Shown piece after piece: positions 1,772 to 39,276 of a stretch of DNA of 45,229 bases. The number at the start of each line of letters is the position of its first letter. Within the stretch, counting starts at the first letter, position 1. The position numbers and the translations under genes were made by a program. The notes under the pieces were generated by a model, which searched no databases, was not told the origin of the DNA, and saw only the letters and a list, made by a program, of their open reading frames with translations. The stretch is from a virus: positions 1 to 45,229 of IMG/VR virus record IMGVR_UViG_3300034072_001022; one strand, 5' to 3'.

Positions 1772-1772
1772 C

Positions 1773-1991: not shown

Positions 1992-2362
1992 GTGAGGCCA
2001 TGAAAGAAGCGTCTGATGGCGTTGTGATTTCCCTAGCTGACGATTCCCTCGTCGACCCTGCTATTGCCCAGGTTGCGGCTACCCTGTGGAACGAGAAGGA
2101 CGGCCGGATGTGTAGCGCGGTGCAGATCCTCGTCCGGCCGCTCGATGTGCGCGGCGACGAGGCGGGCGGGCACCCCGGTGAAGAGTTCGTCATGGTGACG
2201 ATTACCCGCGACGAACTGCGCGCGATGCTCGACTTCGTCGAGGAGGACTGGCGCCTGACTGTTCAGTATGCCGGTGACCCGAACGCAGAAGTCAGCGGAA
2301 CCGGAACTGCATCCGCTGGGCTGCCTAGTTCGGCGGCTGCCGGATCAGAGAAAGGAAACTGA
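1988..2362 (+). CDS. hypothetical protein
   Basis: A 124-residue protein beginning in an ATGA overlap with the upstream zinc-ribbon gene. It is acidic, with a predicted beta/alpha centre (EEFVMVTITRDELRAMLDFVEEDW) and a low-complexity Gly/Ala/Ser tail. I do not recognise a family. Its place in the packaging operon and its coupling to neighbours support that it is expressed. Confidence 0.6.
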   Translation: MSEAMKEASDGVVISLADDSLVDPAIAQVAATLWNEKDGRMCSAVQILVRPLDVRGDEAGGHPGEEFVMVTITRDELRAMLDFVEEDWRLTVQYAGDPNAEVSGTGTASAGLPSSAAAGSEKGN

Positions 2363-2364
2363 CT

Positions 2365-2712
2365 GTGCAAAAACTCAAGCCGTGCCCGTTCTGTGGGGGT
2401 GTGCCAGAAATGGACACATTGCGAGGGTATCGCAACTATAAGACCGGCCGCATGGAGAATGAGATTGCCGTGTACTGCACCTCGTGCTTAGCGGATATGT
2501 CTGTTTGCTATGCCGACGTTCCTGAAATCCAGCCGGAGCAGGTTGCGGACATGTGGAACAAGCGTGAAGCGGACGACTTGGCTGCGCTTGTTGCGCGCCT
2601 CGTCCGGGCCCTGCGGAACGCCGCGCCAGAGCATGAACTGCCTGCGATGGCAGTTGACTACTTGCAGCGCAGCGGGCTTTGCGGGTCGCCATTGCGCGAG
2701 ACGACGAACTAG
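2365..2712 (+). CDS. Lar family restriction-alleviation-like zinc protein
   Basis: A 115-residue protein starting at GTG 2365, preceded by GAAAGGAAAC. The N-terminus KPCPFCGG followed ~30 residues later by CTSC and then MWNKR matches the Lar family (two CxxC pairs and a terminal WNxR). In the Rac prophage, Lar alleviates host type I restriction by modulating the modification activity. Here it is extended at the C-terminus by ~50 residues of helix. Many phage Lar-like proteins are named by similarity only, so the anti-restriction role is inferred. The terminase large-subunit gene begins 12 bases downstream. Confidence 0.65.
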   Translation: MQKLKPCPFCGGVPEMDTLRGYRNYKTGRMENEIAVYCTSCLADMSVCYADVPEIQPEQVADMWNKREADDLAALVARLVRALRNAAPEHELPAMAVDYLQRSGLCGSPLRETTN

Positions 2713-2723
2713 AAATTCCGCCC

Positions 2724-4796
2724 ATGACCATCAACCTCACCCTCCCGCCCGAAACCCGCGCCGCGATCCGCAAGGCCATCGAAGCCGGCCTGGCGCCGCT
2801 GCGCGCCGACAAGCCCGTGCCTTACAGCATCTGGGCGGCTGAGAATTTCGAGCTGGATGAGGAATCAAGCCACCAGCGCGGGTTGTTCGTGCCGTGGCCG
2901 TTCCAGATCGGGTGGATGGATGCTTTCTCGAATGACGACATCTTTGAGGTCGACGTCGAGAAGGCCAAGCGGGTCGGCTATACGAAAACCGTCGTCGGCT
3001 TTGCCGAGTACGAAGCCCGGCATCGTCGCCGCAAGCTGGGCATCTGGCAGCCGACCGACGACGACCGCGACAGCTTCGTCAAGTCAGAAATCACACCGTG
3101 TTTCGACATCTGCCGGGCGCTTGATCCGGTGCGCCGCCTCGGCCGCGATGACGATACGATCAAGTTCAAGCGCTTCCGCGGCTCGGTGCAGCACTACCTC
3201 GGCGCCAAGGCCGCGCGCAGCTTCCGCCGGATCACCATCGCTACCGCGATTCTGGACGAAGTCGACGCCATGGATCAGGTCGTTGAGAAGACGATTGACC
3301 CGGTCACTGGCGCGATCGGCCGCCTCGAGGGCGCGCCTTTTCCCAAGGTGATCCTCGGGACCACGCCCCGGCACAAGCTGACCAGCCATGTCCGCCGCCG
3401 CGTCGACAACGCCGATGCGGTCATGGAATACAACATTCCCTGCCCGCACTGCGGCGCGCAGCATCCGCTGATCTGGGGCGGCGCCGAGGTCAATCACGGG
3501 ATGAAATGGGACGCCGGCGACCCGTCGACCGTGCGTCATGTCTGCCCGCACTGCCTGGCATCGATCCGCCAGGGCGACTACCTCGCTATCTGGGAGCAGG
3601 GCCAGTGGCTCAGCCGGTGTGGTGGTTTCGTCTATGACCACATCGCCACGGTCTGGACCGATGGCGATGGCAACCCGCGCAAGCCGCCACGGCATGTCGC
3701 TTTCGTGCGCGCCTGGACAGCCTACAGCCCGCAGCGCACCTGGTCGGACATCGTTCGCGAATTCCTCGAGGCGCGCAAGGCGCAGAAGGTCGGCGACACC
3801 GGCCCGATGCAGGGCTTCAAAAATGAGACCTTGGCCGACGTCTGGGAAGAGTCCTACGACCACACCGACGCCAGCGTCCTGCGCGAACGCGCCAAGACGG
3901 ATCTCGACATCCCCCTGCAGGTCGTGCCGAACGGTGCCGCCAAAGTGCTGGTCGGTATCGATACCCAGGCCGACCGCTGGGAAGCCGTTGCCTGGGCCAT
4001 CGGCCCGAATGGCGAGCGCTGGCCAATCGACTACCGCGTCATCTACGGAAACCCGGCCGTGCAGACCGAGTGGGGCGAAAAGCTCGATCCGATCATCCGC
4101 ACCGTCTATCGCCATATCAATGGCCACGACGTCAAGATAGCCGCCGTCGGCATCGATACCGGCGGCAGCAACTGGACGCACCAGGCCTATAACTACTGTC
4201 GCGAGCGCCAGCACCTCGGCGTTTACGCCACCAAGGGCGATGGCGCCTTGGGCGCGCCGATCAAGATGAAACCGACCTGGGTTGACGTCAATGCCGCCGG
4301 CCGTACGCTCAAGCGCGGCGTCAAGCTCTGGCGCATCTGTACCGACACCGCCAAGGATCTGCTGCACGGGCAACTTGACCAGGTCAAGCAGCCGGGGCCC
4401 GGCTATATCCACCTCAACCGCTACCTGCCGCCGGAGTTTTTCGACCAGCTCACCGCCGAGCACCGCATCCGCGTCCGCCTGGCGCATGGCTACGCCGAAC
4501 GCTGGGTCTGCCCGTCGGGCATCCGTAACGAAGTTCTCGACTGCACGGTGATCTGCATGCTGCTCGAGCAGATCCTCGGCCTGCACAACACGCCGGAGAA
4601 CACCTGGCGCATGTGGCTCAAGGCGCTTGAGCCGGATTTGTTCGCGCCGCCGATGGTGCTGAATGTTGAGGTCGACCGTGCAGAAACCGAAAAAACCACC
4701 CATGTAGTCCAGACGTCTGCACCGTCTGAAGCCCCTGAAAAGACCGAGGAAAACCACGATGACGATGATCTCTTCGCCCCGATCAAAATCCGATAA
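2724..4796 (+). CDS. terminase large subunit, lambda gpA family
   Basis: A 690-residue ATPase-nuclease. ATG 2724 is preferred over an in-frame upstream start at 2679 that would overlap the Lar gene by 34 bases. The variant Walker A of lambda gpA is visible (KAKRVGYTK, ~80-88) with Walker B (AILDEVD, ~176-181). Two CPHC pairs (~240 and ~274) form a zinc-ribbon insertion. The nuclease domain starts near 410, with GIDTQ (Asp ~413), GIDTG (Asp ~478) and NEVLDC (Asp ~606) as likely metal ligands. The acidic C-terminus probably contacts the portal. The enzyme cuts and translocates phage DNA into proheads. Family membership favours cos-type packaging. Confidence 0.93.
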   Translation: MTINLTLPPETRAAIRKAIEAGLAPLRADKPVPYSIWAAENFELDEESSHQRGLFVPWPFQIGWMDAFSNDDIFEVDVEKAKRVGYTKTVVGFAEYEARHRRRKLGIWQPTDDDRDSFVKSEITPCFDICRALDPVRRLGRDDDTIKFKRFRGSVQHYLGAKAARSFRRITIATAILDEVDAMDQVVEKTIDPVTGAIGRLEGAPFPKVILGTTPRHKLTSHVRRRVDNADAVMEYNIPCPHCGAQHPLIWGGAEVNHGMKWDAGDPSTVRHVCPHCLASIRQGDYLAIWEQGQWLSRCGGFVYDHIATVWTDGDGNPRKPPRHVAFVRAWTAYSPQRTWSDIVREFLEARKAQKVGDTGPMQGFKNETLADVWEESYDHTDASVLRERAKTDLDIPLQVVPNGAAKVLVGIDTQADRWEAVAWAIGPNGERWPIDYRVIYGNPAVQTEWGEKLDPIIRTVYRHINGHDVKIAAVGIDTGGSNWTHQAYNYCRERQHLGVYATKGDGALGAPIKMKPTWVDVNAAGRTLKRGVKLWRICTDTAKDLLHGQLDQVKQPGPGYIHLNRYLPPEFFDQLTAEHRIRVRLAHGYAERWVCPSGIRNEVLDCTVICMLLEQILGLHNTPENTWRMWLKALEPDLFAPPMVLNVEVDRAETEKTTHVVQTSAPSEAPEKTEENHDDDDLFAPIKIR

Positions 4797-5103
4797 CTCG
4801 CCTGCCGACGATCGAATTGATGACGACATCCCTACCGTCGTCGAAGAGGAAATGCGCCTGGCCCGGCTGGCCAATATTCCTGCCGACGACATGCCGCGTT
4901 ATGTCGCGGATAGAATCCGGCTGCGCATCGCCGGAGCGGTTAGCTATACGCGCAAGCGCCAAGGGTCGCCGGCCCAGCGCGCCGCCGAGATCCGCCGAAA
5001 ATTCACCGGAGACAACATCGCCGAACTTGCCCGCGAATTTGACCTGACGCCAAATCGAATTCGGCAAATCGTCAATGGCACCTGCATGTCACGGACAAAA
5101 TAA
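4759..5103 (+). CDS. Mor-like transcription activator
   Basis: A 114-residue protein whose start lies inside the terminase gene (38-base overlap), after GAGGAAAACCACG. The C-terminal ~50 residues (RRKFTGDNIAELAREFDLT, then NRIRQIV) match the helix-turn-helix of the Mu Mor/C family, where an FxGxN...ELAxxYGLT motif precedes the recognition helix. The middle (residues 30-75) is helical, as in the Mor dimerisation domain. Mor switches on middle/late transcription in Mu. This gene ends directly in the first 34-bp repeat (5098-5131), an AT-rich element also found before the Rz gene, which makes that element a candidate binding site. The regulatory role is inferred. Confidence 0.65.
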   Translation: MTMISSPRSKSDNSPADDRIDDDIPTVVEEEMRLARLANIPADDMPRYVADRIRLRIAGAVSYTRKRQGSPAQRAAEIRRKFTGDNIAELAREFDLTPNRIRQIVNGTCMSRTK

Positions 5104-5131
5104 TTAATAAAAATTTCACCTAAAAATTTCC
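5098..5131. repeat. 34-bp direct repeat, copy 1 (candidate late promoter/operator or recombination site)
   Basis: This AT-rich stretch is identical over 34 bases to 13935-13968. It contains AAAAATTTC twice in tandem (5109-5117 and 5122-5130, 13 bases apart); each core AAATTT is self-complementary. It includes the TAA stop of the Mor-like gene and lies 25 bases before the W gene. It is conspicuous in GC-rich surroundings. Confidence 0.9.
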
Positions 5132-5139
5132 GCCCCATC

Positions 5140-5154
5140 CCGGCAATCTGCCGG
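5140..5154 (+). promoter_or_regulatory. leader hairpin before the W gene
   Basis: CCGGCA-ATC-TGCCGG forms a perfect 6-bp stem ending two bases before ATG 5157. There is no Shine-Dalgarno sequence here. The same position before the Rz gene has GGCA-TTC-TGCC (13979-13989). A role in translation initiation or mRNA processing is inferred. Confidence 0.45.
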
Positions 5155-5156
5155 TC

Positions 5157-5387
5157 ATGGGAATCTACAGCCACCTCTCCGAATCCGAACTGAGCGCGCT
5201 GCGTGACAAGTTCACGCAATCGCTGACCGAGCGCTTGACCGGCGTTACCGTCCACGCAAACGCCGACAAGCGTGTGCAGTGGGGCGAGAACTCGGTCGAT
5301 CAGATCCGGGCGGCGCTGGCTGAGATCAACGCCGAAATCGACAAGCGGGCAGGGCGCAACCAGCGCCGCCCGATCTACCTGGTGTAA
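5157..5387 (+). CDS. head-tail joining protein, gpW-like
   Basis: A 76-residue protein of the size of lambda gpW (68). It shares the layout: N-terminal helix, short beta hairpin (VTVHANADKRVQWG), a second helix (SVDQIRAALAEINAEID) and a terminal basic segment ending RRPIYLV, comparable to the RRGPAGFYV end of gpW. gpW closes the head after packaging and prepares the tail-joining surface. Gene order (terminase, W, portal B, protease C) is that of lambda. No ribosome-binding sequence is visible, only the hairpin listed above. Confidence 0.8.
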   Translation: MGIYSHLSESELSALRDKFTQSLTERLTGVTVHANADKRVQWGENSVDQIRAALAEINAEIDKRAGRNQRRPIYLV

Positions 5388-5389
5388 CG

Positions 5390-7045
5390 ATGGCACGCCG
5401 CAGTCGCCGCCATCCCGCCGCCCTTCGCGCTGGCGCGCAGCCCGCCGGCCCGATGGCTGTTTCGCACCATGCTGCCAGCGGTTCCGACCTCGCCCTGCAG
5501 GGCTGGAACCCCATCGCCGCCAGTGCCGATGCCGACCTGCTGCCGGATCTCGAAACGATGATGTCCCGCAGCCGGGACCTGGCCCGCAACAACGGGCTGG
5601 TCGCCGGCGGCTTTCAGACGCTCCGCGACAATATCGTCGGCAGCGTGCTCAAGCTATCGGCCACACCTGACTACCGCCTGCTCGGCTGGACGCGTGATCA
5701 GGCGCTCGAATGGGAAAACATCGCCGAAGCCAAGTTCCGCAGCTACGCCGAGATGCCTGGCGAAGTCGATGCTGGCCGCACCCTCGATCTGCTCGGCCTC
5801 ACCCTGCAGGCCCTGACCGGCGCCTTCACCAACGGCGACGCCGTCGCGCTGCCAATCTGGAAGCCGCGCCCGGATGCCCGTTGGTCGACACGCATCAAGC
5901 TGATCGAGGCGGACCGCCTCTGCACGCCCGCGCACCTGGAACACCGCGACGACTGGCGCGGCGGCATTCAATTCGACGAGGATGGCGCGCCGATCAACTA
6001 CGCCTTCCTCAAGCGCCACCCGGGCGACGCCTACGGGCTGTTCGGCGCACGGGCGGCCATCAAGGAATGGGAGATCGTCCCGGCCTTCACCGCCTGGGGT
6101 CGTCGCCGCGTGATTCACCTGCACGACAAGGAGCGCACGGGGCAGAGCCGCGGCAAGCCGATCCTGGCGGCCGTCATGAAAGAATTCCACATGGCGGGGA
6201 AGTACAGCAGCAACGAGCTGCAGGCCAGTGTCGCCTCGTCGCTCGTTGCCGCCTTCCTGGAATCCGATCTTGACCAGGAGAGCGCCGGCGCCCTGTTCGG
6301 CGAAGATCCGCGCGCCGCCTGGAATCAGTCGGTCAAGCAAGCCCAAAGCATCCGCAAGCTCGAAGGCGCTGCGGTCATCCCGCTGCCGGTCGGCGCCAAG
6401 GTCAGCACCTTTACGCCTGGCCGCCCGAATCAGGCCTTTGAAGCCTTCATGCTGGCCGTCCTGCGGCACATCGCCGCTGGTATGAACATGCCCTATGAGC
6501 TGCTGCTCAAGGATTTCAGCCAAACCAACTATAGCAGCGCCCGCGCCGCGCTGCTCGAAGCCTGGCGTTACTTCCTCGGCCGGCGCCGCTGGCTGGTGAC
6601 CACCTGGCTCAAGCCGATCTATGAGCTGTGGCTCGAAGAAGCCGTCAACGCCGGCGAGATCGAGGCCGCCAACTTTTACCAGCAGCGCTACGCCTACACC
6701 CGCTGCCGCTTCATCTTCGGCGGCAAGGGCTGGGTCGATCCGGTCAAGGAAGCGCAGGCCGCCATCCTTCGCGTCGCCGGTGGCCTCTCGACCATGGAAA
6801 AGGAATGCGCCGAGCAGGGCGAAGACTACGAAGAAGTCCTCGACCAGCAGCAGATCGAACAGAAGATGCGCGCCGAGCGCGGCCTGCCGCCCCTCGGCGG
6901 CAGCGCCAACAAGCCCAGCGTCAGCACCGTCTCGCAACAGCAGGACAACCCGGCCGATCCGGAAGACGAGACCGGCCAGCAGAGCACCCGGGCCTTCAAT
7001 GACACCATGGCCCTGCTGGGCCATCCGCAGGAAACCGCGCAATGA
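5390..7045 (+). CDS. portal protein, lambda gpB family
   Basis: A 551-residue protein, close to lambda gpB (533). The N-terminus is basic, followed by the segment in which arginines and NNGLVAGGFQTLRDNIVGS precede the portal core. The C-terminus is Gln/Asn-rich. It forms the dodecameric ring through which DNA enters, to which terminase docks and where connectors attach. It starts two bases after the W stop and overlaps the protease gene by four bases (ATGA). Confidence 0.92.
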   Translation: MARRSRRHPAALRAGAQPAGPMAVSHHAASGSDLALQGWNPIAASADADLLPDLETMMSRSRDLARNNGLVAGGFQTLRDNIVGSVLKLSATPDYRLLGWTRDQALEWENIAEAKFRSYAEMPGEVDAGRTLDLLGLTLQALTGAFTNGDAVALPIWKPRPDARWSTRIKLIEADRLCTPAHLEHRDDWRGGIQFDEDGAPINYAFLKRHPGDAYGLFGARAAIKEWEIVPAFTAWGRRRVIHLHDKERTGQSRGKPILAAVMKEFHMAGKYSSNELQASVASSLVAAFLESDLDQESAGALFGEDPRAAWNQSVKQAQSIRKLEGAAVIPLPVGAKVSTFTPGRPNQAFEAFMLAVLRHIAAGMNMPYELLLKDFSQTNYSSARAALLEAWRYFLGRRRWLVTTWLKPIYELWLEEAVNAGEIEAANFYQQRYAYTRCRFIFGGKGWVDPVKEAQAAILRVAGGLSTMEKECAEQGEDYEEVLDQQQIEQKMRAERGLPPLGGSANKPSVSTVSQQQDNPADPEDETGQQSTRAFNDTMALLGHPQETAQ

Positions 7046-8394
7046 ACTATCCCGCCATCCTCGCCCGCATCTTCAACACGCCGCTGCTGATCCACCCGCA
7101 GAAGCTCGATGCCATGATCGCCGGCATCGGTCCGCGCCTGTTCGGCAATGATCAGCAGGCCGGCGCCATCCTCGCCGCCCTGGCTGCTGGTCGCAATCTT
7201 GCGGTCGACCAGCAAAACCAGCCGGAAATGTTCAGCACCCGCCGGGGCGAACGTGCCGAACGCGGTTACCAGGTCATCGATGGTGTTGCCGTGCTCAACA
7301 CCAGCGGCGCCCTGGTGCATCGCTCCAAGTTCGTCATGGCCGACTGCAGTTTCATGCAGGGCTACAACGACCTGACCGCCGACGTCGAAGATGCCATGGC
7401 CAATCCGGACATTCACGCCATCCTGCGCGTCATGGATACCCCGGGCGGCGAAGTGCAGGGCGTCTTCGAGCACCATGCTCGCATGCTCGAACTCAAGGGC
7501 AAAAAGCCGATGATCGCCATCGCCGACGGTCTTGCCCTGAGCGCGGGCTATCTGGCTGGCATCGCTGCCGACGAACTGGCTATCACCAGCACCGGCTACG
7601 CTGGATCGATCGGCGTCGTCATGCGCCATATCGACTTCTCGGCCGCGCTGGTCAATGAGGGCATCAAGGTCACCCACATCTTTGCCGGCGCCCACAAGGT
7701 CGACGGCAACCAGTTCGAACCGCTGCCTGACGCCGTGCGCGCCGACATGCAGGCCGAAATCAACAGCCTCTACACCATGTTCGTCGAGACAGCCGCCGCC
7801 GCCATTGGCGCCGAGCCGGAGGCCCTGCGCAAGACGCAAGCGCAGACCTACCGCGGCCAGGCCGCCGTCGACGCCGGCCTCGCCAGCCGCATCAGCACCA
7901 CCGATCAGCTCATTTCCGAATTGGCCGGGCAACGCGCCCGGCTATATCCCGTCGGGCAATCCGCCCGCGCAATTGCAACCGGCATTGAAAAGGAGACTTC
8001 CATGAGTGCCACCGAAAACCCGACGGGTAAAGACAACGCGCCCGTCATTACCCAATCCGATCTGGACAAGGCTCGCGCCGAAGGTCATGCCGCCGGCGTC
8101 GCTGCCGAGTCCGCCCGCGTCAGCGGCATCCTCGCGCTGCCCGCCGCCAAGGGCAACCCGGAACTGGCGCAAACCTGCATCAGCACCGGCCTGAGCCTGG
8201 AGCAATCCACCGCCATCCTCGGCGCCGCGCCGGCTGCCAAGCAAGCCCCGGACGCTGCCGCCAACCCCTTCGCCGCCGCCATGGCCGCCACCAAGAACCC
8301 GGATGTCTCGGGGGGTGAAGGCAAGCCGGATGCCGGTGCCGAAACCGAGGATGCGCTCGCCGCGTCCATCGTCGCCACGCTGAATCTCAAGTAA
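7042..8394 (+). CDS. head maturation protease, S49/SppA-like (gpC), with scaffold domain
   Basis: A 450-residue protein. Residues ~80-290 are an SppA/S49 serine protease: LNTSGALV, DTPGGEV (~132-138), the nucleophile in ALSAGYLAG (Ser ~167), and the general-base lysine in GAHKVDGN (Lys ~219). Residues ~320-450 are the helical Ala-rich scaffold region. In lambda, gpC cleaves itself and other prohead components. A second in-frame start with a strong RBS at 8002 makes the scaffold part separately. Confidence 0.92.
   Translation: MNYPAILARIFNTPLLIHPQKLDAMIAGIGPRLFGNDQQAGAILAALAAGRNLAVDQQNQPEMFSTRRGERAERGYQVIDGVAVLNTSGALVHRSKFVMADCSFMQGYNDLTADVEDAMANPDIHAILRVMDTPGGEVQGVFEHHARMLELKGKKPMIAIADGLALSAGYLAGIAADELAITSTGYAGSIGVVMRHIDFSAALVNEGIKVTHIFAGAHKVDGNQFEPLPDAVRADMQAEINSLYTMFVETAAAAIGAEPEALRKTQAQTYRGQAAVDAGLASRISTTDQLISELAGQRARLYPVGQSARAIATGIEKETSMSATENPTGKDNAPVITQSDLDKARAEGHAAGVAAESARVSGILALPAAKGNPELAQTCISTGLSLEQSTAILGAAPAAKQAPDAAANPFAAAMAATKNPDVSGGEGKPDAGAETEDALAASIVATLNLK
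8002..8394 (+). CDS. internal-start scaffolding protein, Nu3-like
   Basis: ATG 8002 lies in frame inside the protease gene and is preceded by AAAAGGAGACTTCC, a better Shine-Dalgarno than that of the full-length gene. Translation from it gives a 130-residue Ala-rich helical protein identical to the C-terminus of the protease. This reproduces the lambda C/Nu3 arrangement, where Nu3 is the prohead scaffold. The internal initiation is inferred from the RBS and the lambda precedent. Confidence 0.78.
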   Translation: MSATENPTGKDNAPVITQSDLDKARAEGHAAGVAAESARVSGILALPAAKGNPELAQTCISTGLSLEQSTAILGAAPAAKQAPDAAANPFAAAMAATKNPDVSGGEGKPDAGAETEDALAASIVATLNLK

Positions 8395-8406
8395 GGAGCC
8401 GCGCAA

Positions 8407-8787
8407 ATGGACACCAAAGCCAAATTCGAAACGCTGGGCACCAACGCCGAGGACAACCTCCTCGCCGGCAATGCTCACCTGCTCGTCGGCCGCAAGATCA
8501 CCATCGCCAGCGGCCAGGGCGTGCTGAAGCGCGGCACCGTCCTGGGCAAGATCACCGCGTCTGGCAAGTACGTCAAGTCGCTGTCTGCCTCCAGTGACGG
8601 TAGCCAGACGCCCGATCTGATCCTGGCCGAAGACGTCGACGCCACCAGCGCCGACGCCATCGGCCTGGCCTATGCCCGTGGCGACTTTGCCGCCCAGGCC
8701 CTCACGCTCGGCACCGCCCACACCGTGGCCAGCATTACCGAGGGTCTGCGCGCCAAGGGCATCACCCTCATCAACATCATCGACTAA
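8407..8787 (+). CDS. head decoration protein, gpD-like
   Basis: A 126-residue protein with RBS TAAGGAGCC. The central glycine-rich beta segment (ITIASGQGVLKRGTVLGKI) and later LILAEDVDATSADA match lambda gpD and related head-stabilising proteins, which trimerise on the expanded capsid. Size and position directly before the major capsid gene fit. Confidence 0.88.
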   Translation: MDTKAKFETLGTNAEDNLLAGNAHLLVGRKITIASGQGVLKRGTVLGKITASGKYVKSLSASSDGSQTPDLILAEDVDATSADAIGLAYARGDFAAQALTLGTAHTVASITEGLRAKGITLINIID

Positions 8788-8798
8788 GGGAGTCTCAC

Positions 8799-9812
8799 AT
8801 GGACATCTTTACCACCGGAGTTCTGCGCCGCGTCGTCCGCGAGCTGCCGCAGCCGAGCCACTTCTTCCTCAACAGCTTCTTCCGCGAGGAACAGCTGGAA
8901 ACCACCGAAGAAATCCACTTCGACGTCGCCAACGGTCGCCGCCGTATCGCCCCGTTCGTCTCGCCGGTTGTCGCCGGCAAGGTCGTCACCGGCAACGGAT
9001 TCCGCACCGACACCTTCAAGCCGGCCTATGTCAAGGACAAGCGCGTCTTCAAGCCGCAGGGCGCCCTCAAGCGTGCCATCGGCGAGCGCATCGGCGGCGA
9101 AATCTCGCCGGCCCAGCGTATGCAGCTCAAGCTGGCCAGCGAAATGATCGACCAGATCGAAATGCTCGGCCGCCGCCTCGAGCTGATGGCCGTCGAAGCC
9201 CTGCGCCGCGGCAAGGCCACGATTACCGGCGAAGAGTACCCGACCGTCGAGCTGGATTTCGGTCGCCATGGCGATCTGACCAAGGCGCTGACCACGACTG
9301 CGCGCTGGGGCGAATCCGGCGTCGAGCCGCTGGACGATGTCGAGAAGTGGGCGCAGGAAGTTGCGCTGCACTCCGGTGCCGCCGCCAACCAGCTGGTCTT
9401 CGACGTCAAGGCCTGGCAGCTGTTCAGTGCCTCGCCCAAGGTTGCCAAGCTGCTCGATCGCTTCCGTGGTGCCGACCAGTTGGTCTCCACCATCGGCGGC
9501 GCCGGCGCCAAGTACATGGGCAACATCGGCACCTACGACTGCTGGGTGTACTCCGATTGGTACGAAGACCCGGGCACCAAGGCGCTCACCCCGTACCTGC
9601 CGGACTACACCGTGGTCATGGTCAGCGTGGATCTGGAAGGCGTCCGTTGCTTCGGCGCGATCCAGGACGAAGAAGCCGGCATCGAACCGATGTCCTACTT
9701 CCCGAAGTCGTGGCTCGAAAAGGACCCGGCCGTCCGCTACCTGCTCATGCAGTCGGCCCCGCTGATGGTGCCGTTCCGTCCGAACGCCTCGCTCTGCGCG
9801 ACCGTTCGCTGA
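8799..9812 (+). CDS. major capsid protein, lambda gpE family
   Basis: A 337-residue protein, near lambda gpE (341), with RBS AAGGGAG. It begins with a short helix and shows family features: FFREEQLETTEEIHFDV near the start, the FKPAYVKDKR segment, YWDCW-like GTYDCWVYSDWY, and a final RPNASLCATV. It builds the HK97-fold icosahedral shell. The preceding gpD and following FI-like genes confirm the head module. Confidence 0.93.
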   Translation: MDIFTTGVLRRVVRELPQPSHFFLNSFFREEQLETTEEIHFDVANGRRRIAPFVSPVVAGKVVTGNGFRTDTFKPAYVKDKRVFKPQGALKRAIGERIGGEISPAQRMQLKLASEMIDQIEMLGRRLELMAVEALRRGKATITGEEYPTVELDFGRHGDLTKALTTTARWGESGVEPLDDVEKWAQEVALHSGAAANQLVFDVKAWQLFSASPKVAKLLDRFRGADQLVSTIGGAGAKYMGNIGTYDCWVYSDWYEDPGTKALTPYLPDYTVVMVSVDLEGVRCFGAIQDEEAGIEPMSYFPKSWLEKDPAVRYLLMQSAPLMVPFRPNASLCATVR

Positions 9813-9827
9813 TCGGGGAGGGTGATC

Positions 9828-9998
9828 ATGAAACTGATTGCACTGGTCACCCTCGTCACCAAGGACGGCGACGTGCCGCCCGGTGACGAGCTCGAGGTCA
9901 AGGATGCCAAGGAAGCCAAGGGTCTGATCGACCGCGGCTTCGCCAAGTCCGCCGAGACGAAGGCCGAAGCCAAGGCCAAGGCAGAAGGTCAGCAGTAA
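9828..9998 (+). CDS. small FI-position head protein
   Basis: A 56-residue protein from ATG 9828, with GGGGAGGGTG as RBS. The first 40 residues (MKLIALVTLVTKDGDVPPGD, then a VKDAKEAKGLIDRG segment) resemble short beta/alpha phage proteins that follow the capsid gene (FI position in lambda). The tail is Lys/Ala/Glu-rich. The exact role is unknown; lambda FI helps terminase dock on proheads, but similarity is by position only. Confidence 0.7.
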   Translation: MKLIALVTLVTKDGDVPPGDELEVKDAKEAKGLIDRGFAKSAETKAEAKAKAEGQQ

Positions 9999-10003
9999 AA
10001 CCC

Positions 10004-10025
10004 GGTGCGCCCGCAAGGGCGCGCC
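10004..10025 (+). terminator. strong stem-loop between head and lysis genes
   Basis: A 9-bp stem (one G-T wobble) with a GCAA loop, centred on GCGCCC and GGGCGC. It has no T tract, so it is not a classic intrinsic terminator. It could be an attenuator or mRNA processing site separating the capsid transcript from the lysis block. Confidence 0.4.
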
Positions 10026-10050
10026 CCTCCCAGGGAAAAGGACAACAACA

Positions 10051-10428
10051 ATGGCAGAACCCTCCACCTCCGCCGGCATGTCGCTCACGGTCATCGGCAT
10101 CGCGCTGCTCGGCCCCATGGCCGGCCCCTATGCCGTCATCGTCTTCGCCGCCCTTGCCGGTGCGATGTGGCCGCTCTCGGCCAGTCAGACCGAAAGCCGC
10201 CTTGCCGGCGCCTGGCTGCTGCTGCGCGTGACCCTGACCGCCGTTGTCCTCACCCTGTTCATCGCCAGCATTATCGAACGCACCTGGGGCGTGCCGCCCT
10301 CCGAATCGCTCGGCTCTGTCGCCCTCGGCATCGGTGCCCTGGGCAATAGCTGGAAAACGATTTGGGAAGCCCTGGGCAATGGCTTGCGCGGCTTCCTGCG
10401 TCGCCTCGGCGGGGGAAAACATGAGTAA
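10051..10428 (+). CDS. holin-like membrane protein
   Basis: A 125-residue protein with RBS AAAAGGACAA. Two to three hydrophobic segments are visible (~10-42, ~52-75 and a weaker one at ~85-100), followed by a basic tail (LRRLGGGKHE). Small multi-span proteins directly before an endolysin are typical holins, which permeabilise the inner membrane at lysis time. No sequence motif proves it. It overlaps the next membrane-protein gene by 8 bases, and the pair may act as holin and antiholin. Confidence 0.6.
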   Translation: MAEPSTSAGMSLTVIGIALLGPMAGPYAVIVFAALAGAMWPLSASQTESRLAGAWLLLRVTLTAVVLTLFIASIIERTWGVPPSESLGSVALGIGALGNSWKTIWEALGNGLRGFLRRLGGGKHE

Positions 10429-10771
10429 CACCCTGATCGTCATCGCCCACGAAACACTCTGCCTCATCATTCTCTGGTCGGTCTTCTGCCGGTCAGTCCA
10501 GTCATCCGATCGCGTGCGTGCAGACGTCCGCACTGCGTTCTTCCTGCTCGGCATCGTCGCCAGCGCCGGCATCGTCGCACCGCTTGCCTGGCAATACACG
10601 CCCGATGCCTTCGGCTTTGCCCTGTTGGCCGCCATTGCCGCCGTCCAGGGCGTAACCGCACATCATTGGTCGGCCGGCGTGCCGGACCGGTTCTACAAAC
10701 CCGGGTGCGCCCCGCGCAAGCGCCGATCCTGTGACATCGATGGAGGGTGCCGCCATGGCATTGACCCTTGA
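10421..10771 (+). CDS. second small membrane protein of the lysis cassette
   Basis: A 116-residue protein starting inside the previous gene (ATG 10421). Three hydrophobic segments (~5-22, 37-55, 60-78) are followed by a Cys/Arg-rich tail that overlaps the endolysin start by 17 bases. Its position suggests a holin partner or antiholin. I do not recognise a named family. Confidence 0.55.
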   Translation: MSNTLIVIAHETLCLIILWSVFCRSVQSSDRVRADVRTAFFLLGIVASAGIVAPLAWQYTPDAFGFALLAAIAAVQGVTAHHWSAGVPDRFYKPGCAPRKRRSCDIDGGCRHGIDP

Positions 10772-11297
10772 CCAACTGCGCAAGTGCATTCCCTACGCCG
10801 GGCCGCGCGCTGCCCTGTTTCACCCGCACCTCGTTGCCGCGATGGCGGAATTCGGCATTGACGCCCCGTTGCGCCAAGCCGCATTTCTCGCACAGGTCGC
10901 GCACGAATCCGGCAGCCTGCGCTACGTCCGCGAAATCGCCAGCGGCGAAGCCTACGACACCGGCCGCCTGTCCGCCCGCCTCGGCAACACACCGGAAGCC
11001 GATGGCGACGGTCAGCGTTTCAAGGGCAGAGGGCTTATCCAGATCACGGGCCGCGACAACTACCGCAGCTGCAGCCTGGCGCTGTACGGAAACGAGCAGC
11101 TGCTCGAGATCCCGTCACTGCTCGAAGAGCCCGCCGATGCCTGCCGCAGCGCCGCCTGGTTCTGGTCAAGCCGCAATCTCAACGCGCTGGCGGATACCGG
11201 GGCGTTCCGTGCGATCACCAAGGTGATCAACGGTGGATATAACGGCTATGCCGACCGGCTGGCCTTTTACGAACGTGCAAAAGCAGTGCTTTGCTGA
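10755..11297 (+). CDS. endolysin, glycoside hydrolase family 19 (chitinase-like)
   Basis: A 180-residue enzyme. ATG 10755 with GGAGGG seven bases upstream is preferred over GTG 10731. GH19 hallmarks are AHESGSL (catalytic Glu ~51), a second Glu ~60, RFKGRGLIQITGRDNY (~88-103) and the C-terminal NGGYNGYADR. It cleaves peptidoglycan glycan strands. No signal peptide is present, so it depends on a holin, consistent with the two membrane proteins upstream. Confidence 0.9.
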   Translation: MALTLDQLRKCIPYAGPRAALFHPHLVAAMAEFGIDAPLRQAAFLAQVAHESGSLRYVREIASGEAYDTGRLSARLGNTPEADGDGQRFKGRGLIQITGRDNYRSCSLALYGNEQLLEIPSLLEEPADACRSAAWFWSSRNLNALADTGAFRAITKVINGGYNGYADRLAFYERAKAVLC

Positions 11298-11314
11298 AAC
11301 CCTGGAGAACTCAA

Positions 11315-11494
11315 ATGATCCTGTCCAGTAACGGAAACTTGGTCAATCCTGACGACCTGGCGCAAACGCTGTCGTACAACGGAAGCGGTCAGCTGTCGCA
11401 CATCGAGGTCACTGCCGGCACCTGGGTCTATCGTCAGACCTATACCTACGCCGACGGAAAGCTCTCGGTCGTTTCGCAATGGGTGAAGCAATGA
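11315..11494 (+). CDS. small YD-repeat-like protein
   Basis: A 59-residue protein with RBS TGGAGAAC. It contains a beta-type motif (LSYNGSGQLSHIEV... YRQTYTYADGKL) like a single RHS/YD repeat. Such short proteins accompany phage fibre genes. It overlaps the next small gene (ATGA). No function is assigned. Confidence 0.55.
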   Translation: MILSSNGNLVNPDDLAQTLSYNGSGQLSHIEVTAGTWVYRQTYTYADGKLSVVSQWVKQ

Positions 11495-11670
11495 ACATCG
11501 CCAACATTGCAGCAAAGCTGAAGGGTGCCTTCGGCTTTGTCACCGCGCAGCAATCGGTCACCGGGGGGATGGGATTCAACGGCCAGATCGTCGACATGGA
11601 CGAGACGCCCGACGAAACCAACACAGAAGACTACCCGGTCGGCACCCTGTTCATCTCGCCGGCAGAGTAA
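11491..11670 (+). CDS. small hypothetical protein upstream of fibre
   Basis: A 59-residue protein. ATG 11491, in an ATGA overlap with the previous stop, is preferred over ATG 11479. The C-terminal half is acidic (DMDETPDETNTEDYPVG). It is not recognised. Its tight coupling to both neighbours suggests it belongs with the fibre/adsorption genes. Confidence 0.5.
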   Translation: MNIANIAAKLKGAFGFVTAQQSVTGGMGFNGQIVDMDETPDETNTEDYPVGTLFISPAE

Positions 11671-11672
11671 TC

Positions 11673-12986
11673 ATGGCGCTCAAGATCAAGACGCTGGCCG
11701 GGCTGGTCAATGCCGCGTTGCACATCAAGACGGCCTCCGGCATCGTGCCGGTGAATCTGCACATCAAGACGGCCGGCGGGATCGAGTTGTTGAACGGCGA
11801 CGTTGGCCCGGTGTATCCGGTCGCGCAACTGCTTGAGTCGTTCGACTCACTGACCGGTTTTTCGTTTGCCGCCGCCTCGACGCAGGCGCTGGATACGTCC
11901 GGACAGTCGCAGGGTACGGGTCGCATTCAGCTACTCGGCAACGGCTCTAATGCCACGCTTTTTGCGACAAAGACATTGGCCGGACCGTTCGTCCCGGCAG
12001 AACTAGGTACTATCGCTTGGCTTGCAAGCAAGACGGCGGCACAGTCTGCGAGCATTTCCGGCCAGCTACTGGTCCTGTCGCGTGGCGGAACCAGCAACCA
12101 AGTGACCTGCATGTTGGACTCGGCGACGAAATCCCGTGCCGGCAAAAAGATGGTGTGCGCGCACATCGCCGAATTCCCGTTGGTCGCCGCCCTCGGCTCT
12201 GGCACGCTGACCGTCAGCCCGCGTTTCTCAACCCTGTCGCCCTACACCGGTGACGTGACCATAGACGCGATGTATGCACAGGCTCAGGGCCGGCCTACCG
12301 TCGTCATCACGTTCGACGATGGCTACAACAGCATGTATGACACGGTCTATCCGATCATGGCGGCGCGAGGGCTGGTCGGTAACTACTATGTGCCGAAAAC
12401 CTCCGGCGTCGATGTAGCCAACCGCGTCACCTCCGCGCAGATCGCAGAGCTTTACGCGGCGGGCTGGGACATGGCATGTGACTCGACGCCGAATGACAGC
12501 AATACTGTCCTGAACGACACAACGGCTGCTGTGGCTGCCATCAATCAGAACCGTGACTGGCTGATCGCCCGCGGCTACACAAGAGCGAAGGATCACTTCT
12601 GCTGGACGGGCGGACTATGGAATGAGGAAACCGCCGCTGCATTCAAGACGGCGGGCTTCAAGTCTGGTCGCACGACCGACCCGCAGAGCTTTCACGACCG
12701 CTTCGGCGTGTTCGACCTGGACATAACGATCCCGAGCCAGGGCGCATCCAGCACAACGGCGCTGTCGGTGCATCAGGCTCGAATCGCCGAAATCAAGGCT
12801 CGTGGCACGACGCAGTTTTTCCACTTCCATGACATTTCAGCCAGTCCGTCAGCAATCGGCTGGCAGGTCGATAAGTTCACGTCACTGATGGATCAGATCA
12901 AGGCCGACCGCGATGCCGGGCTTATCGACGTTCTTACGCTGTCGCAGTGGTGGTCGCGCGTGTCGCGCGCCAGCCTGCCGGCGTAA
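11673..12986 (+). CDS. virion fibre-like protein with polysaccharide deacetylase (NodB/CE4-like) domain
   Basis: A 437-residue protein. Residues 1-45 contain three short repeats of the form (L)xIKTAxGI, an attachment-like region. Residues ~60-200 form a beta-rich domain. Residues ~205-430 resemble CE4 deacetylases: VVITFDDGYNS (Asp 215/216, motif 1), WTGGLWNEET (motif 3 position) and HFHDIS (~384-388, motif 5). The usual metal-binding HxxxH is not seen: the aligned segment reads ACDSTPND (~268-275). Either metal binding differs or the domain only binds glycan. A role in degrading or recognising host surface polysaccharide is inferred. It sits between endolysin and recombinase genes, unusual for a fibre. 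Confidence 0.75.
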   Translation: MALKIKTLAGLVNAALHIKTASGIVPVNLHIKTAGGIELLNGDVGPVYPVAQLLESFDSLTGFSFAAASTQALDTSGQSQGTGRIQLLGNGSNATLFATKTLAGPFVPAELGTIAWLASKTAAQSASISGQLLVLSRGGTSNQVTCMLDSATKSRAGKKMVCAHIAEFPLVAALGSGTLTVSPRFSTLSPYTGDVTIDAMYAQAQGRPTVVITFDDGYNSMYDTVYPIMAARGLVGNYYVPKTSGVDVANRVTSAQIAELYAAGWDMACDSTPNDSNTVLNDTTAAVAAINQNRDWLIARGYTRAKDHFCWTGGLWNEETAAAFKTAGFKSGRTTDPQSFHDRFGVFDLDITIPSQGASSTTALSVHQARIAEIKARGTTQFFHFHDISASPSAIGWQVDKFTSLMDQIKADRDAGLIDVLTLSQWWSRVSRASLPA

Positions 12987-13017
12987 TTTCTAACCCCCTC
13001 AGCACCCGATCCCGTCC

Positions 13018-13944
13018 ATGGGCACCCTCGCGACCCGGCTCCTATCCGCAACGATAGGCCGGGTCGTTCCTCGTTATCGGACGTGCAACGAGTGGGCAGA
13101 TGACTATCGCCAGATCATCGACCAGCTGCCGGTCTGCGAGCATACGAAAGTCAATCGACGCTGCGCCCTGGTGCATGTCCTGGCACACCTCGGCAATGAC
13201 GTCATCGGCTCTGTCCGGCCGCTCCGGGTGGGCAAGGCCATCCGGGACATCGCGGCGACAAGCCCGCAAACCGCGAAGCGCGCCTTGTTCGAGGCGCGTT
13301 CGTTTTTCAACGAGGCCGTCCTGGCCGGCGTCATCGACAGCAACCCGGCCGCGCCGATCAAGCCGCCTCGCGTCCGCATATCCCGGCATCGGATGTCGCT
13401 GGATCACTGGCTGGCGATTCGCGCCTGGTCCGTCGATCATCAGCCGCCCTGGGTGGCGCTGATGCTTGACCTTGCCCTGGTGACCGGCCAGCGCCGCTCT
13501 GACCTCAGCACCATGCGCTTCGCCGACGTGTGGGACGGATACCTGCATGTCGAGCAGTACAAGACCGGCACGCGCCTGGCGTTTCCCGTAGCCCTGCGTC
13601 TCGACGCCATCGGCAAGAGCATCGCCGACGTGATCGAGGCCTGCCGGCCCTATGCCGCACCCGGCGACACGCTGCTGCGCCGAAAGTCAGGCAAGCCGCT
13701 GGTTGATGCCAGTTTGTCGGCCAGATTCGAAGAGGCGCGCGAAGGCGCCGGCCTCGAATGGGCAACCGGCACGCCACCGTCTCTGCATGAGTGCCGGTCG
13801 CTATCCGAGCGCCTGTACCGCGAGCAGGGCATCGATACCCGCGTGCTACTCGGACACAAGCACCAGTCGATGACCGATGCCTACAACGACGACCGCGGGC
13901 TGTCGGCAGGAAAGTGGATCACGCTCGCCATCGGAAATAATTAA
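13018..13944 (+). CDS. tyrosine recombinase (late-operon located)
   Basis: A 308-residue phage-integrase-family protein. All active-site residues are present: Arg in TGQRRSDL (~159), Lys in YKTGTR (~182), HECR (His ~257, Arg ~260), LLGHK (His ~280) and Tyr in DAYNDDRG (~289). The N-terminal ~120 residues form a SAM-like core-binding domain. No clear RBS precedes ATG 13018. Its last three codons lie inside the second 34-bp repeat. It is transcribed with the late genes, unlike the canonical integrase at 29372-30361. It may mobilise or invert the neighbouring module, or be an integrase acquired with it; this is unproven. Confidence 0.85.
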   Translation: MGTLATRLLSATIGRVVPRYRTCNEWADDYRQIIDQLPVCEHTKVNRRCALVHVLAHLGNDVIGSVRPLRVGKAIRDIAATSPQTAKRALFEARSFFNEAVLAGVIDSNPAAPIKPPRVRISRHRMSLDHWLAIRAWSVDHQPPWVALMLDLALVTGQRRSDLSTMRFADVWDGYLHVEQYKTGTRLAFPVALRLDAIGKSIADVIEACRPYAAPGDTLLRRKSGKPLVDASLSARFEEAREGAGLEWATGTPPSLHECRSLSERLYREQGIDTRVLLGHKHQSMTDAYNDDRGLSAGKWITLAIGNN

Positions 13945-13968
13945 TAAAAATTTCACCTAAAAATTTCC
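13935..13968. repeat. 34-bp direct repeat, copy 2
   Basis: Identical to 5098-5131 over 34 bases and in the same orientation. It includes the stop codon of the tyrosine recombinase, as copy 1 includes the stop codon of the Mor-like gene, and lies 24 bases before the Rz gene. The following leader bases are also similar to those after copy 1. Confidence 0.9.
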
Positions 13969-13992
13969 TGCCCCGGCCGGCATTCTGCCCCC

Positions 13993-14469
13993 ATGAATCC
14001 ATGGGTCCTGATCATCTGGTTTTCCACCTTCGCCCTCGGCATCGCCGGAGGCTGGTCCTTGCGTGGCGACCACGAGGACGCCGCCCGGCTGCGCACTTAC
14101 GTCGCTGCCGTCGAGAAAAAGGACGCCGACCAGGTCACGGTCGACCGGCTGGAAACCGAACAAACCAGTGCCAACGCTGACCAGGCGGTCAAGGACCGCA
14201 TCATTACTCGCGAGGTGATCCGCTATGTGCAAGTCACGCCTGCAGCTGCTCGCTGCACTCTCCCTGGCACTTGGCGCGTGCGCCACGACGCCGCCGCCAC
14301 CGGCCAGCCCGGTACGCCCGCCGAGCTGGCTGCTGATGCCGCCGAGCCGGTTGGAGACGATACCGCACTCGACACCGTCGCCGAAAACTACGCCGCCTGC
14401 CGACACGTCATCCGTCAAGTCGAAGGCTGGCAAGCCTGGTGCAAAACCGTAGGGCCGTGCCGTGAGTGA
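13993..14469 (+). CDS. i-spanin, Rz-like
   Basis: A 158-residue protein with an N-terminal membrane anchor (residues ~4-22) and a charged helical periplasmic region (~25-75), typical of an inner-membrane spanin. The Rz1 lipoprotein gene is entirely nested in another frame (14225-14452), the lambda Rz/Rz1 architecture. Together they fuse inner and outer membranes at the end of lysis. The pair is separated from the endolysin by ~2.7 kb holding fibre and recombinase genes. Confidence 0.82.
   Translation: MNPWVLIIWFSTFALGIAGGWSLRGDHEDAARLRTYVAAVEKKDADQVTVDRLETEQTSANADQAVKDRIITREVIRYVQVTPAAARCTLPGTWRVRHDAAATGQPGTPAELAADAAEPVGDDTALDTVAENYAACRHVIRQVEGWQAWCKTVGPCRE
14225..14452 (+). CDS. o-spanin lipoprotein, Rz1-like (nested)
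   Basis: A 75-residue protein in the +1 frame within Rz. A signal sequence ends in a lipobox, SLALGAC with Cys 19, followed by a proline-rich mature part (TTPPPPASPVRPPSW), both diagnostic of Rz1. GAGGTGAT precedes ATG 14225. It is anchored in the outer membrane and pairs with Rz. Confidence 0.85.
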   Translation: MCKSRLQLLAALSLALGACATTPPPPASPVRPPSWLLMPPSRLETIPHSTPSPKTTPPADTSSVKSKAGKPGAKP

Positions 14470-14743
14470 GGCCTTTGCCGCCATGCGCGCCAGCTTGATC
14501 GCCGGCCCGCTTGCCGAGGATGTCACGCTTGCCGGCCAGCCGGCGCGGGCGTTTGTGCATCGCGACGTCGAGTTGGTCGGCGAATTCGGCCAAGTCGTCG
14601 GCCGGCGTATCGAGGTCGAGATCGCATCGGGCAGCGCCGGGTCCGGCGTGCCGTGCCTTGTTGGCGTCCAGACGTATGTACTCGGCGCCGAGGTTGCCGA
14701 CGATGGCCTGTTTGCCCGTTACGTCCTGGAGCCCGGGCTGTGA
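14462..14743 (+). CDS. head-tail connector, FII-like
   Basis: A 93-residue protein starting at GTG 14462, overlapping the Rz end by 8 bases. It is beta-rich, with ARAFVHRDVELVGEFGQVVGRRIEVEIA. Its position before Z- and U-like genes is that of lambda FII, the attachment-site protein for the tail. Sequence similarity by eye is modest. A GTGA overlap couples it to the next gene. Confidence 0.6.
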   Translation: MSEAFAAMRASLIAGPLAEDVTLAGQPARAFVHRDVELVGEFGQVVGRRIEVEIASGSAGSGVPCLVGVQTYVLGAEVADDGLFARYVLEPGL

Positions 14744-15360
14744 AAGTCGGTCTCTCCGTTTCCGGGCTGTACCAGCTCAAGGCGCTGCGCAAGAAAATCG
14801 AGCAGTTTCCCGTCGCCGCTGATACTGCCGGCGCCGCTGCGGCTAATGAGGTTGTTGAGCAGGTCGAGATCGAGGCCGCCCGCGATATCACCCAGGAACT
14901 CAACCTGCCGGCCAGCTACATCCGCGAAAAGTTTCTCTCCCGCAAGGCTAAGCGCCTGGGCGATGTGGCCATTGTCGCCGCCAGAAAACGAGCGGTTAGA
15001 GCCGCAAGATATGCCGCTGAGCAGATCACCGCCCCGGCGCCGCGCGCCAAGGGCGACGCCCTGCGCGGCATCCAGGCAGGTCGCAAGCAGGCCGGCGTGA
15101 GCATCAAAGTAAAACGCGCCGGAAAGCGCACGAAGATTGCAGACGGGTTTTTGTTGCCGCTGCGCGCCGGGAAACAGGATGGCGGAAACGGGTTCGGAAT
15201 TTTTACCCGTCTCGGGGATGTCGTCGAGCAAGAGTACCGAGTCTCTCCTGATCAGGCATTCCGCGCCTGGATCGCCAAACACCGCCCGGACATCGGCGGC
15301 CGTCTGGCCGTAGCCTTCCGCGCCCACTTTGCCCGCGAACTGCGGAAGTTGCGCAAATGA
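14740..15360 (+). CDS. minor tail protein Z-like
   Basis: A 206-residue protein from GTG 14740 (GTGA overlap). The pattern is that of prophage minor tail protein Z (GPZ): N-terminal VSGLYQLKALRKKIEQFP, a central basic region with LPASYIREKFL, and a C-terminal FRAHFARELRKL. Lambda gpZ (192 residues) acts in tail completion before head joining. It overlaps the next gene by ATGA. Confidence 0.78.
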   Translation: MKVGLSVSGLYQLKALRKKIEQFPVAADTAGAAAANEVVEQVEIEAARDITQELNLPASYIREKFLSRKAKRLGDVAIVAARKRAVRAARYAAEQITAPAPRAKGDALRGIQAGRKQAGVSIKVKRAGKRTKIADGFLLPLRAGKQDGGNGFGIFTRLGDVVEQEYRVSPDQAFRAWIAKHRPDIGGRLAVAFRAHFARELRKLRK

Positions 15361-15800
15361 AAGACACCCTGATCGCCATCCGCCTGAAGCAAATTCTGTC
15401 GGGCATTCGGCAAGCCAACGGGTTTGCAACCGACATCGGCGCCAACATCAAGCACGGTAGCCGCGCGCAGGTTGATCCCGGGGTGCTGTACTTGTCGGAC
15501 GAGCAGGAAGACGAGGTTGTCGAGCAGAAAGGCACCAGTGTCGTCCGCCGGCAGCCTTACACCGCCGAGGTCTCCTTGATGTGCCTCGATGACACCCGCC
15601 AGACCATCGCGCATGACGCCATTGCAGACCTCTGCCGCGCGCTCTGGCCAGAGAAGGAAGACGACGAGCTCAAGGCACTGCTCGCCGACCGCCCCGCCTA
15701 CGTCGGCCGCAGCATCAAGCCCCGCACCGACGGGCAAAACCTGGTGACCGTGCAGCTCAAGTTCCAGGTCAAGTTTGTTTTCAACCTCGCCAAACCCTAA
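15357..15800 (+). CDS. tail terminator, gpU-like
   Basis: A 147-residue alpha/beta protein of gpU size (131), lying directly after Z. It starts with a long helix (IAIRLKQILSGIRQANGF) and ends with a beta strand (VTVQLKFQVKFVFNL) as in tail-completion proteins. gpU stops tail polymerisation and caps the tube. Confidence 0.68.
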   Translation: MKDTLIAIRLKQILSGIRQANGFATDIGANIKHGSRAQVDPGVLYLSDEQEDEVVEQKGTSVVRRQPYTAEVSLMCLDDTRQTIAHDAIADLCRALWPEKEDDELKALLADRPAYVGRSIKPRTDGQNLVTVQLKFQVKFVFNLAKP

Positions 15801-15811
15801 AGGAGGCACCC

Positions 15812-16567
15812 ATGTCCAGCAAAGCTGTAGCGCTTTTCCTCGCCGCCGACGTGTACTACCGTTTCAAGAATCCGACGACCGGCGTTTTCTCCAACCCCGT
15901 CAAGATCGAGACGGAAAAGCTCGAGATCAACACCCCGTCCGAACTCACCGAAAAGCTCTCCAAGGGGCGTGACACTTACAACCAGGCCTTCGTTTCGCAC
16001 CGCGTCCCGCAGCCGACCGAGTTCGCCATCGCCTTCAGCGAGCAGAACCGGGACATCTTCGCCATGGCCCTGGCCGGCGTGCTCGAAACCATCAATCTCA
16101 ACGCGGGCACTCTGACGGACCATGAAGTCACTGTCGTGCTGGATGAGTGGGTGCCGATCGGTCACCGTCACATCAATCTGACTGGCCTGGCTGTCAAGAA
16201 TAGTGCCGGCAGCACGACCTACGACCGCGACGTGGACTACGAAATCAACCCGCGCCTCGGCCTGATCAAAGCGCTGTCGAGCGGTGATATCGCTGCCGGC
16301 ACCGTCAAGATCACCGGCACGACGCTGGCCAAGGAAGGCACCCGCATCGTCGGCGCCCGCCAATACGGTCATGTGCTGTCTTTCCAGGCCGACGGCCGTA
16401 ACCAGATCGACAACAAGGATACCTACATCGAGGCCTACCAGGCCACGGTGTCGGCCGATGCTGCCCGCGACTTCCTTTCCGGCGAGATTGACAGCCTGGA
16501 ACTGACCGGCCGGCTGGAAATTCCGCCGAATGGCAACACGCCCTTCGTCATGGAACTCTACGACTAA
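15812..16567 (+). CDS. major tail tube protein
   Basis: A 251-residue protein with RBS AAAGGAGG, the best SD in the tail module, as expected for an abundant structural protein. It is beta-rich throughout. Features are SELTEKLSKGRDTYNQAF, a central domain with DRDVDYEINPRLGLIK (a segment seen in phage tube proteins) and a C-terminal GRLEIPPNGNTPF. Its place between terminator and tape measure supports the call. No G/GT chaperone gene follows, unlike lambda. Confidence 0.75.
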   Translation: MSSKAVALFLAADVYYRFKNPTTGVFSNPVKIETEKLEINTPSELTEKLSKGRDTYNQAFVSHRVPQPTEFAIAFSEQNRDIFAMALAGVLETINLNAGTLTDHEVTVVLDEWVPIGHRHINLTGLAVKNSAGSTTYDRDVDYEINPRLGLIKALSSGDIAAGTVKITGTTLAKEGTRIVGARQYGHVLSFQADGRNQIDNKDTYIEAYQATVSADAARDFLSGEIDSLELTGRLEIPPNGNTPFVMELYD

Positions 16568-16576
16568 GGGTAGGCC

Positions 16577-39204: not shown

Positions 39205-39248
39205 GTCGGCCTCGGGTGTCGTCAATTGCAGAAAATCAGGCCACGATA

Positions 39249-39276
39249 TTTACATAAACTTGCCGCGTTCAGACAA
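39249..39276 (-). promoter_or_regulatory. possible promoter for secreted-protein gene
   Basis: Leftward TTGTCT (39276-39271) and TGTAAA (39254-39249) are 16 bases apart in an AT-rich gap. It would express the gene independently of the repressor operon. Confidence 0.35.

Follow-up and report, generated by a model that had tools for sequence, protein, structure and literature searches.

The 45,229-nt stretch of viral DNA analyzed here (IMG/VR record IMGVR_UViG_3300034072_001022, hereafter the window) contains two identical direct repeats, one behind the gene of a Mor-like activator and the other behind a tyrosine recombinase gene. Comparison with other phages suggests, with a probability of about 0.87, that the Mor-like protein drives two late promoters, of which these repeats form the activator-binding parts. 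The evidence comes from the anatomy of the repeats, from paired sites of other sequence found behind Mor-like genes in other phages, and from the distance of these sites to the next start codon.

The repeat pair and the promoters predicted from it

The copies at 5098–5131 and 13935–13968 lie on the same strand and match exactly over 34 bp, as the original prediction had described, and they are indeed AT-rich: among all 34-base segments of the window, the two richest in A and T coincide with them to within 2–3 bases. A simple estimate (45229^2/2 divided by 4^34) puts the chance of an exact 34-mer pair in 45 kb at about 3e-12. No third copy was found in the window at up to 13 mismatches, the sole other match being that of one copy to its own reverse complement. 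Beyond the identical part, 21 more bases are similar, which extends the match to 55 bp at 89%, up to just 5′ of the next start codon at both places. The open reading frame (ORF) coordinates confirmed that each copy contains the stop codon of the preceding gene, at repeat bases 4–6 in the left copy (Mor-like ORF, 4759–5103) and at bases 8–10 in the right one (tyrosine recombinase ORF, 13018–13944). As these offsets are unequal, the overlap with the stop codons looks incidental. Both gene calls, previously made from the sequence alone, agreed with profile searches. The Mor-like protein belongs to the Mor/C family by its match to PF08765 (E 3.9e-10, 40.1 bits, curated cut-off 24.9) and also matched phrog_532, “late transcriptional activator” (E 1.8e-10); the recombinase matched PF00589. 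Two features had not been noted before: the 36–37 nt spacing between dyad centre and ATG at both copies, and a second tyrosine recombinase gene. The features of the window are as follows.

4759–5103, plus strand: gene of the Mor-like late activator, 114 amino acids (PF08765, phrog_532), proposed binder of both repeats
5098–5131, plus strand: left 34-bp repeat, consisting of an AT-only, UP-element-like upstream part (5098–5110) and a dyad; role predicted from relatives and Mu Pm
5111–5129, plus strand: left dyad AAATTT-cacctaa-AAATTT, centre at 5120, 37 nt 5′ of the ATG
5140–5154, plus strand: candidate hairpin CCGGCA-ATC-TGCCGG just 5′ of the ATG (z −2.5; z −1.4 in a fixed window)
5144–5149, plus strand: candidate −10 box CAATCT of the putative left late promoter
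5157–13944, plus strand: putative late operon 1, its extent predicted from gene order, with a small ORF (5157) and the genes of portal (5390), S49 protease (7042), decoration protein (8407), major head protein (8799), a polysaccharide-deacetylase ORF (11673) and the late tyrosine recombinase (13018)
13018–13944, plus strand: additional tyrosine recombinase, encoded at the end of putative late operon 1 (PF00589, E 3.8e-18), which the sites of the relatives do not need
13935–13968, plus strand: right 34-bp repeat, of the same composition as the left
13948–13966, plus strand: right dyad, centre at 13957, 36 nt 5′ of the ATG
13979–13989, plus strand: candidate weak hairpin GGCA-TTC-TGCC (z −0.5)
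13981–13986, plus strand: candidate −10 box CATTCT of the putative right late promoter
13993–19761, plus strand: start of putative late operon 2, which runs on further, with the genes of an Rz-like protein (13993), major tail protein (15812) and tape measure (16577); extent predicted from gene order
29372–30361, minus strand: second tyrosine recombinase, 329 amino acids (PF00589, E 8.3e-17)

The upstream part of the left repeat consists of A or T at 13 of 13 positions, the same in the right copy, so that the dyad is immediately preceded by an AT-rich stretch, as in Mu Pm. We propose that a dimer of the Mor-like protein would bind the dyad of each repeat and replace the −35 element, with help from the AT-rich stretch. 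The host sigma-70 RNA polymerase would then use the −10-like box located 6–7 nt 5′ of the ATG and start transcription at the start codon or within a few bases of it. From the left promoter, transcripts would cover the head block ending in the recombinase gene, and from the right one the Rz/tail block.

Paired sites behind Mor-like genes in other phages

Genomes were searched for Mor-family genes independently of the recombinase, and matches were found in 68 of 399, 50 of 300, 29 of 369, 58 of 399 (overlapping the 300), 24 of 53, 2 of 7 and 10 of 17 genomes. Regions were fetched mostly around the weaker, window-like Mor matches, and the phages sampled were mostly in Burkholderiales. The 260-bp segment at each Mor stop codon was matched against the remainder of its locus, whose other 260-bp segments served as controls; one set of 69 loci was searched on both strands, and two sets of 39 and 29 loci on the same strand only. 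The segment at the Mor stop outranked every control in 21 of 137 loci (11 of 69, 2 of 39 and 8 of 29), where about two were expected. The 69-locus set includes nine loci picked via the recombinase or the L017 activator, which account for L017, L027 and L096, besides L135, among the 11. By eye, 19 of the 21 passing repeats are dyads; L208 (coding-like) and L270 (a duplicated gene stretch) passed the rank test and were dropped, as they are not dyads. In the same test, the Mor region of the window was beaten by one of 169 control segments, probably owing to terminal redundancy. The ends of the window are redundant, with 156 of 158 bases identical between 1–158 and 45072–45229, and the genome is thus circular or terminally redundant.

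The sequence of the sites varies among phage groups, yet is common to the copies within one phage. L007 carries a 31-bp sequence of its own, repeated exactly at 3189, before the portal operon, and at 8306, after the recombinase gene and before the protease-capsid gene. Still other repeat sequences occupy the same two places in L017, L027 and L096, the last with a third copy. Since different sequences stand at the same places in these four phages, it is the arrangement that is shared, not the sequence. In all tabulated phages, a site lies directly 3′ of the Mor-like gene, with the exceptions of L007, where it is 290 bp further, and L006, where no activator gene was seen on the contig. L006 has one clear site, and a degenerate one, seen by eye and under the 72% limit, seems to precede a portal block on the opposite strand. 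This portal block (1–1060) is inverted relative to 1081–5362, which comprises the recombinase gene, its upstream neighbour and the capsid block.

The sites recur before other late operons, usually before the capsid gene. Of 13 phages tested, 12 encode a major-capsid domain in the ORF after the second or last site, in most cases as a fusion with a protease domain. These are nine of nine in one group (L231, L236, L221, L243, L204, L215, L256, L234 and L007) together with L017, L027 and L006; the exception is L096, where the third site precedes a head–tail attachment gene (Phage_attach). One gene after a first site, tested alongside, gave no domain match. In the window, the second site precedes the Rz-like gene and the tail genes.

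Forty-five sites from 23 phages were tabulated, with dyad centres and ATGs set by eye. L264 (a short dyad that failed the rank test, 13 of 69), L204, L234, L256, L006 and L007, whose site lies outside the tested 260 bp, were added by eye, while L135, L136, L111, L311 and L313, near copies of L017, L027 and L315, were left out. In 30 of the 45 sites an ATG lies at a fixed distance from the dyad centre, where, in about a dozen sites with more than one possible start codon (among them L007 left, L017 left, L236 right, L234 right, L304 both, L306 right, L253 both, and L264), the start fitting the distance was taken. The dyads of the relatives span 12–29 bp. In 19 sites with long dyads the distance is 36.0–41.5 nt (mean 38.3, standard deviation 1.5), and in 11 with short dyads, to which L253 belongs like L264, it is 44.5–46.5 nt (mean 45.0, standard deviation 0.7). 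A word resembling a Shine-Dalgarno sequence precedes only two of these 30 starts versus 131 of 302 control ORF starts. At the other 15 sites the ATG is 53–85 nt from the dyad centre, and such a word is present in eight. This difference between near and distant ATGs is as expected if transcription started about 40–45 nt from the dyad: an ATG at the start site would give a leaderless message, and one farther away a message with a leader and a Shine-Dalgarno sequence. A hexamer of the form xAxxxT, beginning 13 or 12 nt 5′ of the ATG, was found at 23 of the 30 fixed-distance sites versus 17 of the 302 control starts (Fisher 7e-19), where it should be considered that this pattern, like the hairpin discussed below, was conceived on a first set of sites and that the second set had already been seen before the hexamer was tabulated. 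Both copies of the window have the hexamer at the predicted place. Taken with the geometry, which is near that of Mu Pm, the sequence data predict that the late mRNAs of the first genes are leaderless or nearly so.

Several observations weigh against the promoter reading. No close relative of the window activator or of the 34-mer was found in viral contigs or phage records, thus the window was read by anatomy and not by close homology, and the refuting condition of the original prediction, homologous phages that lack the repeats, could be addressed in part only; a close relative of the L017 activator was likewise not found in these collections. The window recombinase, unlike the activator and the 34-mer, has close relatives there. 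The repeat test failed in 116 of the 137 Mor loci, and the activators of L096 and L027 had no PF08765 match by Pfam, being matched only by an iterated profile built here. In favor of the reading, the similarity of the Mor proteins correlates with that of their sites (Mantel r 0.55, 22 phages, 0 of 5000 permutations), but this correlation is confounded by common descent. The dyad of the window is not significant on its own (p 0.25–0.48), and its 6-bp arms enclose 7 bp, 19 bp in all, whereas the dyad of Mu Pm spans 16 bp (5 + 6 + 5).

Candidate hairpins at the −10-like box and rival explanations

Folding of the 50 nt that begin 15 nt 3′ of the dyad centre was compared with that of shuffled sequence. 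The mean z was −1.44 in 28 sites, with negative averages in 14 of 14 phages, versus −0.14 in 933 tiled segments; it was 0.05 in 90 gap-preceded starts, and the enrichment at the sites had a p of about 1e-5. In the second set, chosen by the repeat alone, the enrichment was less marked (mean z −0.91, n = 17, versus −0.15, n = 698; p 0.005). A clear difference from controls was seen only in the composition-corrected z and not in raw hairpin free energy (p 0.08). Of the two window hairpins, the left one is clear and the right one weak. In some phages, such as L306 and L027, the copies have different arms, with pairing kept within each copy, as judged by eye. By analogy with T4 gene e, such a GC-rich hairpin may silence read-through RNA; it may instead be an insulator or operator and not a translation gate. 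A wider generalization, which we consider possible although somewhat less probable than its negation, is that one Mor-type activator opens two to three late operons as leaderless messages across a wide range of temperate tailed phages and prophages, each promoter lying inside a GC-rich hairpin that shuts the start codon in read-through RNA from upstream, so that only RNA from the late promoter, which has no 5′ arm, would be translatable. If true, the capsid gene would be under a double lock, one on its transcription and one on its translation.

A hairpin at the −10 position could also belong to an operator, as might be the case if the repeats were read by another phage or host regulator, either a repressor or a second activator, in place of the Mor-like protein. 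We regard this as unlikely, as the site lies directly 3′ of the Mor-like gene in nearly all tabulated phages (L007 and L006 excepted), Mor and site similarity are correlated, and Mu Pm has a dyad of like kind.

The original prediction had offered two interpretations, activator-binding sites starting two late transcripts and sites of the recombinase, and the comparative anatomy favors the former. In the latter, the repeats would be crossover sites of the 13018–13944 tyrosine recombinase, which would excise or exchange the 8.8-kb block between them. The sites of tyrosine recombinases consist of inverted arms around a 6–8 bp core, and the direct, dyad-like copies of the window resemble such core sites, although its dyad, with 6-bp arms around 7 bp, is not significant as a dyad. 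The recombinase gene abuts the right copy, and a site follows a recombinase gene in L006, L007, L017, L027 and L096 as well. Two sibling prophages, G001:C3 (L017) and G014 (L135), argue against it. They are colinear over about 36 kb at 85–94% identity and both keep both sites, yet G014, with its sites at 18551 and 22455, has no late recombinase (best tblastn E 1.4; sole PF00589 match at 652–1194). Between the portal gene and the second site, G001:C3 has a GDS-motif ORF and the recombinase gene, and G014 a related ORF only. In eight Mor loci found independently of the recombinase, paired sites occur with no PF00589 protein between them. Phage genes of G001:C3 run on past the right site, thus this site is not the integration point, and most recombinase relatives have, by eye, a different gene directly 3′ and no dyad. 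The presence of the sites is therefore not tied to a cognate recombinase in the relatives, as it would be for att or res sites, and we consider a crossover function very unlikely. G001:C3 and G014 each have another PF00589 gene near the left end, and a second one is present in the window, L007 and L096; the minus-strand recombinase at 29372–30361 is more likely the integrase of this phage than that at 13018–13944. That the repeats arose by chance or are a recent functionless duplication, for example a recombination by-product copying an intergenic stretch, would agree with the identity of the copies and can practically be dismissed, because many phages carry such paired sites, unrelated in sequence, at the same places and distances.

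The extra recombinase gene adjoins a variable carbohydrate-active gene 5′ of it in the window (11673–13944), L017 (8650–10915), L003, L094, L098 and L018. Ten of 34 upstream ORFs were tested for domains: this gene encodes a polysaccharide deacetylase in the window and L003 and a GDSL esterase in L094, L098 and, with weaker matches, L018 and L008; that of L094 and L007 begins with Phage_cement_2, and L100, L104 and L017 gave no match. This cassette of recombinase and upstream gene distinguishes the siblings L017 and L135 and is perhaps a module for swapping surface enzymes. At the start of the deacetylase ORF, a 37-bp coding repeat (LHIKTA motif) occurs twice at 11719–11794 with a spacing of 39 bp. 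Elsewhere in the window, a long imperfect inverted repeat with 72-nt arms (76%) lies at 44627–44844, with short GTATGGAAG repeats near 44768, and the GC content drops to 0.50 at 39001–40000, that of the genome being about 0.64.

Comparison with Mu and T4

In Mu Pm, the Mor dimer replaces the −35 element and is centred at −43.5, with an UP element just upstream (PMC4390567). The predicted promoters of the window share with it a Mor-family activator, a dyad, an AT-rich UP-type stretch upstream and a candidate −10 box. The 44.5–46.5 nt between dyad centre and ATG in the short-dyad relatives are close to the −43.5 from the start site in Mu; in the window, the dyad centre lies 36–37 nt from the ATG. 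In the Mu record, three ORFs separate the Mor gene from C, whereas in the window the first target gene directly follows the activator gene; a Mor-to-C relay as in Mu was not seen here. In Mu, the four late promoters Plys, PI, PP and Pmom have related dyads to which C binds (PMC4287176), and the likeness consists in one Mor-family activator serving several late operons through a shared dyad. The difference is that the activator gene of the window stands directly before its first target operon and that the ATG is apparently at or near the start site. In T4, the late promoters of gene e, soc, 49 and I-TevI lie within the DNA for the 5′ arm of an inhibitory hairpin over the start region (PMC3014915). 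A late promoter in the DNA encoding such an arm is what the Mor phages would share with T4 gene e; the T4 genes have other promoters and use Shine-Dalgarno sites, and the function of the hairpin in the Mor phages is only predicted.

The arrangement was not found in the open-licence literature on leaderless late promoters and on Mor-driven late promoters outside Mu, judged by titles and the openings of abstracts. The two repeats most likely represent a variant of the Mor/C type of promoter that Mu exemplifies. This would provide a simple rule for locating late promoters in many uncharacterised prophages, namely to take the sequence that follows the Mor-like gene and seek its twin. The positions of transcript starts are thereby predicted with a precision of a few bases, as is leaderless translation of major structural genes.

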